Of a stretch of DNA of 46,625 bases, positions 23,474 to 27,825 are shown in pieces. The stretch is from contig JAOAAJ010000107.1 in NCBI GenBank assembly GCA_026418935.1, positions 1 to 46,625 of the forward strand. The letters are read 5' to 3'. Source of the DNA: Caloramator sp. (GTDB taxonomy: Bacteria; Bacillota; Clostridia; Clostridiales; Caloramatoraceae). The notes beneath the pieces are model-generated. The model did not search any database. It worked only from the letters and a program-made list of their open reading frames with translations, and was not told the DNA's origin. The first letter of the stretch is position 1. Each line of letters begins with the position of its first letter. The position numbers and the translations under genes were made by a program.

Positions 23474-23700
23474 TAAAAAAATAAACCTCACCCCATATAG
23501 GGGCGAGGTATCGCGGTACCACCCTACTTCGCCTTACGGCCTTAGTTTAGATAACGGCAATGCCGCAACAGCCTACATATCGACTGTTGTGCTCCAGAGC
23601 CATCTTCACATAATCCTATGCCGCTGGCTTTCACCTACCCCAGCTCTCTTTTGACACGGTATTATGCTACTCTCTCCTTCAAAGCATTTAACATTATTAA
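23474..23700 (-). promoter_or_regulatory. Methionine T-box leader of metG
   Basis: The conserved T-box AGGGTGGTACCGCG lies at 23525-23512 on the minus strand. Stem I can be drawn: AGAG/CTCT below and GCATAAT/ATTATGT above an internal loop, with the Met codon ATG at 23603-23601 on the 3' side of that loop (GAAGATGG). The distal region holds GGTGAAAGCCAGC. The terminator stem CCTCGCCCC / GGGGTGAGG (23508-23486) ends in a T-rich tail; its 5' arm would pair in the antiterminator when uncharged tRNA binds. Confidence 0.95.
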
Positions 23701-23704
23701 GACT

Positions 23705-23733
23705 AATGTACAAAATTTGAGAGTTTTTGTCAA
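23705..23733 (-). promoter_or_regulatory. Sigma-A promoter of the metG T-box transcript
   Basis: On the minus strand TTGACA (23733-23728), a 17-nt spacer and TACATT (23710-23705). The -35 overlaps the last codons of the RDD gene just upstream. Confidence 0.6.
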
Positions 23734-25184
23734 GACCAGAAAGACAGTATCCTGTTTATCACTAATAAAAATTTGTTTTGCTTATATACCTCAATCCTAT
23801 AGGAATGTCCCATAACATCATCTTTACCAATAGATTTGACAACTATTTCGTCCATACCATCTCCATCTATATCACAAACTTCTTCAACTATCCTTACCAT
23901 ATAGAAATACCTTCTTGCAGGTCTTTTCCCAAAATTATATTTTGTTTTAAAATTAGTATCCAAAACTTCAAAGGTTTGAATATTTCCTACCTTAAACATC
24001 ATATTGTTTCGTCCGATGTTGTTTATCAAGTATCCACCATTAAATTTAAATATATTTGTTATATCCTTCTTTTTAATTTGTTTTTTATACCTATATTTAA
24101 ACTGACCTTCTTTAAAATCGTATTTATATATATTGGTTTTATTTTCACCCTTTGATAAAACAATTATTCCATCTTCTATCATAAAGGCAGATGGCAATAT
24201 ATCCTCTCCAATTTTCCCAAAAAACATTAAAATAAGCTCTCCTTTATTTAGCTTATATATTTCAATATCTGCATTTCTATTCAAAGTCACTATTTCTTCT
24301 AATCCATCTTTGTCTAAATCTCCTGTTTTTATGTTTACAACATCTCTATTTTTTATATTAGTTTTTGCATATACGTCTCCCCAATTTGAAAATATAACAA
24401 GCTCTCCCTTTGGAGTTACTGCACAAAAGTTACTTTCACCTTTATAATTTATGCTTTCTATAAACTGTATAGGAAAGTCAACTTTAAATTTAAACTCACC
24501 AATAATTTCATCTCCATTTTTATTTAACCTATATACTTCTGTATATTTTAACTTATTCGAGATCCTATATATTACCTTTTTTCCTCCTTCATCAATTATT
24601 GCAGTATATCTTCGTCCCACAGTTTTAAGATAGAGTTCCTCTTGAGATAAACTTAATAGATTATCTCCCTGAAAACTTTGAAAATAGTCATCTGATATGG
24701 CATATTTATTAAGTCCAAATTGTCCAATTTCGTCTAATATAAATCTTGAGGTACCCCTTAACAATGAAGCTATTAATAAAAAATAAGAAATATATAGTAT
24801 AATTTTATTTGCACCTATTTCTTCTATATCTTTATCCACATAGTCCACATAAACACCTGAGGATATATCGTGAAAAGTTCTAAGCTTTTTATCAAACAGT
24901 GCATATATATAACCTATATAAAAAAAGCTTGATGCTATTCTAAATATTTCTCTCTTTAGAGCTATTTTAAAGGAAAAATTTGAAAGTCTAATTTTTAAAA
25001 GCATCATTCCTAATGTCTGCCCATATTTAGCCTGCATAAATACCCTATATATAAACAAAGCTAAAAGAGCTAAAATATATGAATACGCACCAATTTCTGA
25101 TAATATCAAATAAACAATAATAAATACTACCCAATCTATTAAAAAAGCAGCAGAGCGGGAAACAATAAGTAATAGTCTTTCCAT
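23730..25184 (-). CDS. RDD-domain membrane protein with FG-GAP-like extracytoplasmic domain
   Basis: A 484-residue protein with two halves. The N-terminal RDD domain (about 1-125) has RSAAFLIDWVVF (the Arg-Asp pair), KYGQTLGMMLLKIRL and helices, ending KLRTFHDISSGVYV. Another membrane helix lies near 128-145. The rest is a large beta-rich region with repeats like DLDKDGLEEIV near 295 and DIDGDGMDEIVV near 443, which are the Ca-binding loops of FG-GAP/VCBS propeller repeats. Function unknown; it may be a transporter-like anchor carrying a calcium-binding propeller. Its stop codon lies in the metG promoter. Confidence 0.8.
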   Translation of the reverse strand: MERLLLIVSRSAAFLIDWVVFIIVYLILSEIGAYSYILALLALFIYRVFMQAKYGQTLGMMLLKIRLSNFSFKIALKREIFRIASSFFYIGYIYALFDKKLRTFHDISSGVYVDYVDKDIEEIGANKIILYISYFLLIASLLRGTSRFILDEIGQFGLNKYAISDDYFQSFQGDNLLSLSQEELYLKTVGRRYTAIIDEGGKKVIYRISNKLKYTEVYRLNKNGDEIIGEFKFKVDFPIQFIESINYKGESNFCAVTPKGELVIFSNWGDVYAKTNIKNRDVVNIKTGDLDKDGLEEIVTLNRNADIEIYKLNKGELILMFFGKIGEDILPSAFMIEDGIIVLSKGENKTNIYKYDFKEGQFKYRYKKQIKKKDITNIFKFNGGYLINNIGRNNMMFKVGNIQTFEVLDTNFKTKYNFGKRPARRYFYMVRIVEEVCDIDGDGMDEIVVKSIGKDDVMGHSYRIEVYKQNKFLLVINRILSFWS

Positions 25185-25224: not shown

Positions 25225-26664
25225 TTACGCTTCTTTGTATATAACCCTATTTCTTCCTGACTTTTTAGCATTATATAGGGCTTCATCTGCTAAATCTATT
25301 GAATAGTCTATGTTATTTTTATATTTTGTAACACCTATACTTATTGTAAACTTTATATTCAAATTATCTTCTTGGTATGTGAAGGATTCTACCTTTTTTC
25401 TAAGTCTTTCAGCAATGTTTAAAGCATCCTTTTTATCTACACCTGAAATTACTAATAGGAATTCTTCACCACCAAATCTTATTGCATAGTCTCCCTCTCT
25501 TATGCTCTGTTTTAAAATATTTGCTAATGCCCTTAATACTTTATCCCCAACCATATGACCGTAGGTATCATTTATCCTTTTGAAATAATCAATATCTGCC
25601 ATCATAAAATATGCATCAACATTATCCTCTTGAAGTTTAGAAGATAGCTGTTCTACTAAAAACCTTTTGTTATATAAACCTGTTAATGCATCCATATTAG
25701 CCTTATCGTTTAAGTCAGTTTTATCTTTATTAAGCCTCTCAATTATTTCATTAAATTTATTTTTAAACACTTCAACTTCTACTATATTGTCAAGCATACT
25801 ATCGGCACTTTTTATTCTTGTTAAAGTTGTTATGCTGACTATTACCCTATTTATATATTTATTTATAGATTCAGAAATTATATAGGCAAAAACTATTGCC
25901 ATAACAACAGTTAAAAAGAAATAAAGTGCAACCTTTTTAAATAGGTCATTTAAAAATTCATTTCTTATATCTTCTCTATCTATCGTAACAATCATATTAA
26001 AATCCGTGTTTTTTATTTGTTCCCTTATATCTTCTATATATTTTTCATCCTTTTGCGACATCTCAAATAGATTTTTACCAAAACTATCCTGTATAACTAT
26101 ATTCCCTAATCCAACCAAATTATAATCCTTTAAAACATAATCAAACTTCTTTGAATTTATATATCCAACAACTACACCATATCTTCCATCTTCTCTGTAG
26201 GGAGCTGAAAAAGCTACATAATCTACTCCATCCTCTTCAATCACTGTACAAAAACTTCCATTATCAAATAAAAGCCTCTCTTTTATATTTAAACTTTCAT
26301 ATTTCTTATATAAAGTATAATTCCTCTTTACTTCTATCATCCATCCATTTTTATCTATATATTTAATTTTTGTATATTCGTCTCTTGTTAATAAAAATCT
26401 TCTCAAAACTCCTTCAATCTCTTCTTTTTTATAGGTCTTAAGGTTATCTGAATTTGCAAGAAGTCTCATATCGTTTATATTCATTTCCACAAAAGCTTCA
26501 AGATATCTCTTATTCCTATTTAATATCTCTACTATATTTTTTTCATCATTTTCTGTAAAAGTATTGGTTACTGATAAAAGAAAAGTAGATGAAAACATAA
26601 TTAGCGGAAGTATTGAAATCGCTAATAAAAACATCGTTATAACTGCCTTTAATCTTTTAAACAT
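25225..26664 (-). CDS. Membrane diguanylate cyclase with Cache-like sensor
   Basis: Makes c-di-GMP. 479 residues: membrane helix about 10-30, extracytoplasmic Cache-like sensor about 35-240, second helix about 245-270, a coiled region, and a GGDEF domain from about 325 (DALTGLYNKRFLVEQ). The active-site motif is GGEEF at 398-402 and is intact. An RxxD motif (REGD) ends five residues before GGEEF, the classic inhibitory I-site, so product inhibition is expected. The upstream gene is a paralogue of the sensor half only, 12 nt away, and the RBS GGGTGGG lies in that gap. Confidence 0.93.
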   Translation of the reverse strand: MFKRLKAVITMFLLAISILPLIMFSSTFLLSVTNTFTENDEKNIVEILNRNKRYLEAFVEMNINDMRLLANSDNLKTYKKEEIEGVLRRFLLTRDEYTKIKYIDKNGWMIEVKRNYTLYKKYESLNIKERLLFDNGSFCTVIEEDGVDYVAFSAPYREDGRYGVVVGYINSKKFDYVLKDYNLVGLGNIVIQDSFGKNLFEMSQKDEKYIEDIREQIKNTDFNMIVTIDREDIRNEFLNDLFKKVALYFFLTVVMAIVFAYIISESINKYINRVIVSITTLTRIKSADSMLDNIVEVEVFKNKFNEIIERLNKDKTDLNDKANMDALTGLYNKRFLVEQLSSKLQEDNVDAYFMMADIDYFKRINDTYGHMVGDKVLRALANILKQSIREGDYAIRFGGEEFLLVISGVDKKDALNIAERLRKKVESFTYQEDNLNIKFTISIGVTKYKNNIDYSIDLADEALYNAKKSGRNRVIYKEA

Positions 26665-26676
26665 TTTAACCCACCC

Positions 26677-27630
26677 TTAACCTTTGTTAATATATATAAA
26701 AAACTTATTGATTTGGGTCTTTAATTTGCTAAATTCATAAACTTTATAAAAGAAAATGTTTTTGCCTTTTATTCTATCTTTATTTTCTACAGCTTCTATT
26801 ATCTCCTCCATTGCCTCTTGTACCTGATTTGCTATATAGTTTGCAATTGGTATTATAGATATAATTATAAATATTAAAAATACAATTATTTTTAATAGTA
26901 TATTTTTATAGAGTATGTCCTTAAAATACTGATTGTTTATATCAGCAACTAAAGTCCAGTCTGAATTTTCTATTGGCAACTTTATTTCTGCATTTTGATT
27001 AAAATTCTTATCTGCTTTTTTAATTAGAAACTTGTCTCTGCTGTCCATTATATAAATCTCTGCAATTGCGTCTAAATTAATGTTATTAGTAAAAAAATCT
27101 ACTGTATCCGTTGGCATATAAGCAATACAAGTTGCATAAACCTCCTGACCTATTAAAAAGTTTGAGGCAAAGCACATATAAGCTTTGTTGTCCTCTTCGT
27201 TTGTGTAAAAGGCAATATCTCCGTGTTCAAGTGCATATTTATCAAAATAATCAAGCTGTGCCTTTTTGTATTCTCTAATCCTTCCACTTCTATGAACCTC
27301 TAAGACTTCACCATTCTTTTTTATAAATTTCATCTTTTCAAAATCATCTCTTACCTTCATTACTCTTTCAAATACATCTATTATCTCTTCTCTCTTTAGC
27401 GTTTTTACATTATCTGATGTTGCAACTAATTTAACATCTTTAATATTAACCTCTACAAACCTCTCAATATACCTTTTTTCCTTCTCAAGTACAGATTGTA
27501 TATTTCTTTTATCATTAGATATAAAAAAGTTAAAAGTATTATCAAAAAACAAAAACGCAAAAGTTAAAAGAGGCAACAGAGATGATATCATTATCAACAT
27601 TATTATAAAAAACCTAATACTTTTTTTCAT
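26677..27630 (-). CDS. Sensor-only paralogue of the adjacent diguanylate cyclase
   Basis: A 317-residue protein with the same layout as the sensor half of the next gene: basic N-terminus, membrane helix about 6-28, extracytoplasmic region, second helix about 244-264. Shared words include NIQSVLEKEKRYIERFVEVNI here and NIVEILNRNKRYLEAFVEMNI there, followed by LVATSDNVKTLKREEI and LLANSDNLKTYKKEEI. It stops about 50 residues after the second helix with no GGDEF or other output domain. The frame is not broken and the RBS GGAGAG is good, so it looks like a real gene. It may form a mixed dimer with the cyclase or act as a ligand sink. Confidence 0.85.
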   Translation of the reverse strand: MKKSIRFFIIMLIMISSLLPLLTFAFLFFDNTFNFFISNDKRNIQSVLEKEKRYIERFVEVNIKDVKLVATSDNVKTLKREEIIDVFERVMKVRDDFEKMKFIKKNGEVLEVHRSGRIREYKKAQLDYFDKYALEHGDIAFYTNEEDNKAYMCFASNFLIGQEVYATCIAYMPTDTVDFFTNNINLDAIAEIYIMDSRDKFLIKKADKNFNQNAEIKLPIENSDWTLVADINNQYFKDILYKNILLKIIVFLIFIIISIIPIANYIANQVQEAMEEIIEAVENKDRIKGKNIFFYKVYEFSKLKTQINKFFIYINKG

Positions 27631-27744
27631 ATATAGCTCTCCTCATATCACCTTTGTTTATTTATATTATATCAACAATTTGTCAAAAAAACATTAAAGT
27701 TGTCGTAAAATTTTAAAATATGACTTATATTTTTATAATAAATA

Positions 27745-27819
27745 CATAAAGCCCCATAAACGAGTTTAAGCATATATAGCAATCATAAGTAAATATATGC
27801 TTTAAATTCATTATGGGGC
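27745..27819 (-). terminator. Composite hairpin after the MATE gene
   Basis: Outer 9-bp stem GCCCCATAA / TTATGGGGC (27751-27759, 27811-27819) and inner stem TTTAAGCATATAT / ATATATGCTTTAAA with one bulge. On the minus strand it is followed by TTTATG, a weak T tail. It separates the MATE gene from the sensor pair. Confidence 0.65.
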
Positions 27820-27825
27820 CAAAAA

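Follow-up and report, generated by a model that had tools for sequence, protein, structure and literature searches.

A sensor-only paralogue beside a predicted membrane diguanylate cyclase in the Caloramator/Thermobrachium group

On the minus strand of a 46,625-nt stretch of DNA (the window) from Caloramator sp., a heat-loving member of the Caloramator/Thermobrachium group, we found three genes in head-to-tail order. Gene 1 (26677..27630) encodes a sensor-only protein of 317 aa, in which a predicted double-Cache ectodomain is flanked by transmembrane (TM) segments and followed by a short cytoplasmic stub. Gene 2 (25225..26664) encodes a 479-aa paralogue of this protein, whose sensor is fused to a GGDEF diguanylate cyclase domain. 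Gene 3 (23730..25184; ORF and Pfam) encodes an RDD-family membrane protein of 484 aa with FG-GAP-like repeats. The reading frames of genes 1 and 2 and the 12-nt gap between them (26665..26676) agree with the original prediction. This gap is 11 nt in Caloramator proteoclasticus and 12 nt in Thermobrachium celere, and its sequence is similar in the source genome and these two species. Gene 3, which starts 40 nt downstream of gene 2, is probably on the same transcript as genes 1 and 2.

A stretch upstream of gene 1, conserved in the three species, contains a TATAAT hexamer (27666..27671, minus strand) preceded by TGA (TGC in T. celere), which, judging from its sequence, is probably the operon's promoter. 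A hairpin (27750..27820, minus strand; fold −29.7 kcal/mol, z −3.86) lies between the MATE gene and gene 1 and probably marks the end of the upstream transcript; a shorter version exists in C. proteoclasticus, and none in the T. celere stretch compared. Because the hairpin follows the MATE gene and the conserved stretch precedes gene 1, gene 1 is probably the first gene of the operon. Scans for consensus promoters (33 sites vs 28.7 expected) and terminators (1 vs 1.1 expected) stayed at chance level. The sole Rfam match in the window is a T-box leader upstream of metG (23496-23691, minus strand, 115 bits).

The GGDEF domain of gene 2 (residues 322-473; 25246..25701, minus strand) matches the Pfam profile from end to end (1-161 of 161) with an E-value of 3.4e-45 and 154 bits against a cut-off of 23.8. 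It carries GGEEF with REGD five residues upstream, and GGDEF or GGEEF with RxxD at this distance is what we take to define an intact active site. The FGGEEF and REGD motifs are kept in gene 2 of the source genome, C. proteoclasticus and T. celere. Gene 2 is thus predicted to encode a diguanylate cyclase with intact motifs. The source genome has 10 GGDEF matches and one PilZ match, which makes c-di-GMP signalling plausible in this organism. A search of the same genome for the c-di-GMP-I riboswitch returned no match, but neither did its control search, which leaves this negative without weight.

In BLASTP, gene 1 and gene 2 share 91/317 identities (29%) and 168/317 positives (E 3e-40), far beyond chance. 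The alignment covers residues 1-316 of gene 1 and, in gene 2, stops at residue 313, shortly ahead of the GGDEF domain; in each protein, hydropathy indicates TM segments around residues 3-31 and 237-270. The proposal that the two share a recognisable sensor part, and that gene 1 stops shortly after its second helix, is therefore upheld. Gene 1 gave no GGDEF match, no NCBIfam match and no Pfam family above cut-off (the best was PhoU, E 0.19), and the protein ends at the domain boundary. Neither gene 1 nor gene 2 has a helix-turn-helix family above the Pfam cut-off. A frameshifted GGDEF remnant past position 26677, named beforehand as an observation that would count against the prediction, was looked for and rejected; the alignment of gene 1 stays in frame up to the end of the protein, and the 12 nt behind it leave no room for one.

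We then investigated the fold of the ectodomain. The model of gene 1 (mean pLDDT 75.8, pTM 0.61), built from six aligned sequences, has a long N-terminal helix followed by two PAS-like subdomains, all between two TM helices. Its best Foldseek match is the sensor domain of KinD from Bacillus subtilis (PDB 4jgo, 4jgp; E 5.7e-9), with VIA Z-scores of 15.1-15.6 over 195-203 residues at an rmsd of 3.8-4.0. The 50 VIA matches listed are double-Cache chemoreceptor and kinase sensors with Z-scores of 13.8-16.3, and their alignments mostly cover about 180-220 residues at an rmsd of 3-4.7. A long N-terminal helix is called a hallmark of Cache domains in a passage of PMC4822843. The model of gene 2 is weaker (mean pLDDT 60.0, pTM 0.44), with ectodomain elements in a similar order. 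None of the Pfam Cache models matches gene 1, gene 2 or the protein of their single-gene relative G013 described below, and a sequence search of solved structures found none for gene 1 and one for the gene 2 sensor at E 0.42. By structure prediction, the gene 1 ectodomain has a double-Cache fold; the earlier term 'Cache-like' thus stands for the predicted fold, and does not extend to a Pfam Cache match. KinD is a histidine kinase sensor to which gene 1 is about 10% identical, and its ligand cannot be carried over.

The closest named relatives are C. proteoclasticus DSM 10124, with a gene 1 that is 91% identical, and T. celere DSM 8682 (77%). Gene 1 was found in four of the five genomes of the genus, and the survey of relatives that had been suggested as a check recovered the pair intact in three of the five. 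In G004, a frameshift-ridden assembly, the pair is in pieces; metG, MATE and RDD genes are broken there too, so that these breaks look like assembly errors. The 64% complete G003 gave no match to gene 1 or the RDD gene. Across the family, gene 1 matched 6 of 17 genomes, namely four of the genus, G013 and, by a weak partial match, G011, and the gene 1-gene 2 pair was found in no other genus. The RDD gene is present in 15 of the 17, mostly without gene 1 (G016 has no RDD match). It usually lies beside spmA/spmB, and in several genomes beside metG as well. In the RDD neighbourhoods of 11 genomes outside the genus (G005-G015; ORFs of at least 100 aa), a sensor gene lies between spmB and RDD in G013 alone and is missing from the other ten. 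Among the intact pairs, adjacency to RDD is shown only for the source genome and T. celere, because the C. proteoclasticus RDD gene is on another contig.

Wider searches gave few clear matches. A search of 225 genomes of the order with the gene 2 sensor gave matches in 18 at E ≤0.001; those in four genomes of the genus and in G013 were clear, and the other 13 weak (best 1.8e-5). A seven-row profile matched 35 of 391 genomes of the class, strongly in the source genome and weakly in the other 34 (best 4.4e-7). We also examined a sample of the family, 49 GGDEF ORFs from 44 sources, of which 40 have at least 150 residues before the GGDEF domain. The sample drew on 40 regions, extending about 4 kb to each side where the contig allowed, that were hand-picked by open-frame length (about 430-620 aa) among the matches listed (G004 left out). 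A short GGDEF-less paralogue lies near three of the 40 ORFs, all at the same orthologous locus (source genome, L016 and L017). Four belong to tandem pairs that keep both GGDEF domains (L113 and L114), and 32 have no such neighbour. The last one (L140, in G015) has a 660-aa neighbour without GGDEF (L140:2817-4799) that weakly matches its N-terminal part (E 1.3e-6). The tandem cyclases (L113:420-3131 in G002 and L114:3212-5917 in G001) are 437-439 aa each, and simple hydropathy reveals no TM segment in them; G004 has two adjacent matches that may represent this pair as well. Separately, G007 encodes a stand-alone dCache_1 protein of 318 aa (L068:4922-5878, E 1.2e-20) with no output domain matched. 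It is 29% identical to gene 1 over 107 residues, a weak likeness, and no cyclase of its kind lies beside it in the stretch read.

At the chromosomal site of the pair, between spmB and RDD, G013 has a single 484-aa sensor-GGDEF gene (L056:5548-7002). Its sensor is full-length, 30% identical to gene 1 and 25% to the gene 2 sensor. In its GGDEF domain (E 3.1e-29), GWGEF replaces GGEEF, RFKD is kept five residues upstream, and the end has diverged, the profile match stopping at 144 of 161. This protein is likely inactive as a cyclase to judge from these motifs; it may serve as a c-di-GMP receptor or be a cyclase in decay. In G013 the RDD gene is split into two overlapping frames. A flanking-gene tree (FastTree, midpoint root; spmA, spmB, metG, tatD and two RDD blocks from 14 genomes, with metG in 9 and tatD in 8) joins the source genus to g2 (support 0.843) and G013 to g3, g6 and g7 (0.977). 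In this tree G013 is not the sister of the source genus, so either the family's ancestor already had a sensor at this site, with several later losses, or the site received one on two occasions.

The order of events behind the pair was sought in the sensor sequences. Of the positions that are fixed within each clade and on which two of the three lineages agree, 28 unite gene 1 with G013, 19 unite gene 2 with G013 and 25 unite gene 1 with gene 2, a trichotomy; order- and class-wide searches found no close outgroup for rooting. The original prediction had suggested a duplication followed by loss of the GGDEF domain. Such a loss from gene 1 is plausible, and the degenerate GGDEF domain of G013 suits stepwise decay, with G013 a possible intermediate in which the domain degenerates on a sensor at the same chromosomal site. 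Since the three lineages form a trichotomy, a duplication of the sensor-coding part alone is also a possible origin. Duplication and retention themselves are corroborated by the homology, by conservation of the pair in the genus and by purifying selection on gene 1.

Between the source species and C. proteoclasticus, dN/dS is 0.052 for gene 1 and 0.086 for gene 2; between gene 1 and its T. celere counterpart synonymous sites are saturated, hence no ratio is given. Gene 1 is 317 aa long in the source genome, C. proteoclasticus and T. celere alike. It is very probably functional on these sequence grounds, and, being so well preserved in related species, it probably serves as a regulatory partner and is unlikely to be a mere relic.

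The two proteins are conserved in different parts, as seen in three non-independent species pairs drawn from a single small tree. Ectodomain identity is higher in gene 1 than in gene 2 in all three: 199/210 vs 177/207, 170/210 vs 133/206 and 167/210 vs 134/206 (Fisher p 0.0016, 0.00018 and 0.001). The difference sits in the Cache subdomains: in the comparison with T. celere, 107/137 residues of gene 1 and 76/132 of gene 2 are identical there (p 0.0004), and in that with C. proteoclasticus p is 0.006. The long helix is conserved alike in both (p 0.78 and 0.36). The cytoplasmic stub (residues 269-312) is less conserved in gene 1 than in gene 2, with 31/44 vs 42/44, 26/44 vs 35/44 and 26/44 vs 36/44 (p 0.0034, 0.063 and 0.034). 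The simplest reading is that the value of gene 1 to the cell would lie in its ectodomain; relaxation of the gene 2 ectodomain could have other causes.

The predicted models and the alignment place the long ectodomain helix at residues 31-76 of both gene 1 (27403..27540, minus strand) and gene 2 (26437..26574, minus strand). In Cache receptors, the long N-terminal helix forms the dimer contact. Of the 46 helix residues of gene 1, 23 are identical to gene 2 and 12 to the G013 protein. With a split at residue 95, chosen after viewing the alignment, the paralogues share 32/65 residues in 31-95 vs 47/213 after it in the source genome (p 6e-5), and 25/65 vs 47/212 in T. celere (p 0.015). Neither source-genome protein shows a helix excess against G013 (p 0.88 and 0.63), which is a single comparison. 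Gene conversion was considered as the cause of the helix identity and found no support: identical residues use identical codons in 12/23 cases in the helix and 29/56 elsewhere, and within-genome gene 1-gene 2 pairs are no closer in codons than between-genome pairs. Further along, the paralogues in the source genome have strongly diverged, with 4/36 identities in residues 233-268 and 7/44 in residues 269-312. Because the membrane-proximal and cytoplasmic parts differ so strongly, contact between the paralogues need not cross the membrane. The helix pattern gives indirect support to heterodimerisation, being what we would expect of two proteins bound to preserve a shared contact surface; if both had inherited a constraint on homodimers, the helix would stay similarly alike.

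We propose, with a probability of about 0.5, that the pair forms a two-chain membrane receptor controlling c-di-GMP synthesis, in which the output-less gene 1 protein pairs with the cyclase and brakes it. Genes 1 and 2 would be co-expressed and their chains would pair through the long ectodomain helix, and a ligand at the Cache domains of gene 1 would shift the balance between mixed and cyclase-cyclase dimers. A passage of PMC5635695 states that GGDEF homodimerisation is absolutely required for cyclase activity. Since catalysis requires a pair of GGDEF domains, the active site would stay incomplete in a mixed dimer, and gene 1 would therefore most likely act as a dose-dependent brake. We infer the pairing, the ligand and the direction of control from the sequences. 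A more specific version is put forward only tentatively: a co-component receptor built from paralogues, with ligand sensing retained after the duplication mainly in gene 1 and catalysis in gene 2, whose own sensor drifts, the two being joined by the co-conserved helix; a mixed dimer would amount to half an enzyme, so that the ratio of chains would set c-di-GMP output.

Gene 1 might instead be a real ligand-binding subunit that is needed for activity, with the gene 2 ectodomain mainly reading the state of gene 1, as in VtrC-VtrA. The stronger conservation of the Cache subdomains in gene 1 and the equal conservation of the helix fit this arrangement, and co-component systems are a precedent (as outlined in PMC9214523). 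However, with a single GGDEF domain per mixed dimer, activation would need higher-order assemblies, and the gene 1 stub is poorly conserved; we regard this reading as unlikely. It is similarly doubtful that gene 1 makes no contact with gene 2 and works as a ligand sink (a passive decoy) or as the sensor of another protein, for example the downstream RDD protein. Each protein could form homodimers, output-less sensors do exist alone (the G007 dCache_1 protein), and gene 3 lies in the same apparent operon, but the RDD gene is kept in the family mostly without gene 1, and gene 1-gene 2 identity concentrates in the helix. That gene 1 is a functionless, decaying duplicate is highly improbable: its less conserved stub, the degenerate GGDEF domain and split RDD gene of G013 at the same site, the other genera without sensor genes there and the fragmented pair in G004 could be taken for decay, but the dN/dS of 0.05 strongly disfavours it, the length of 317 aa is constant in three species, and the G004 breaks extend to metG, MATE and RDD as assembly errors would.

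The proposed brake can be compared with known systems. The layout of gene 2 (TM, double-Cache, TM, GGDEF) is like that of the dCache_1-type membrane diguanylate cyclases SpdE, GcbC and rpHK1S-Z16, which the relevant part of PMC8846402 describes as single-chain receptors; here, in contrast, a GGDEF-less paralogue lies next door and there is no Pfam dCache match. The co-component systems VtrA/VtrC and ToxR/ToxS, as portrayed in an excerpt of PMC9214523, likewise consist of two adjacent co-directional genes for TM proteins with extracytoplasmic sensors, one with an output and one without, and this arrangement is found here. Their output is a winged-helix DNA-binding domain and their partners are unrelated (VtrC is lipocalin-like), whereas our pair has a cyclase output and paralogous chains and, with GGDEF in place of the winged helix, falls outside the VtrA/VtrC superfamily. 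The heterodimer is known in those systems and proposed here. The pair would work like a co-component receptor while standing outside that family. Regulation by partners that cannot complete the active site also appears among GGDEF-GGDEF heteromers and degenerate GGDEF proteins such as Escherichia coli CdgI, according to a section of PMC5635695. CdgI-type contact is made through GGDEF domains; gene 1 has none, and its contact would be made through the ectodomain.

Among the matches listed, no open-access title or abstract opening described a diguanylate cyclase with a sensor-only paralogue as its partner, and our search of the open-access literature found none joining Caloramator and c-di-GMP. 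The locus is an unusual regulatory layout of paralogues around a cyclase and not a new kind of system. Cyclases of the gene 2 type are generally regarded as receptors made of a single protein. An output-less sister chain, if it does pair with the cyclase, would act as a natural dominant-negative or co-sensor, comparable with the decoy receptors of animals.
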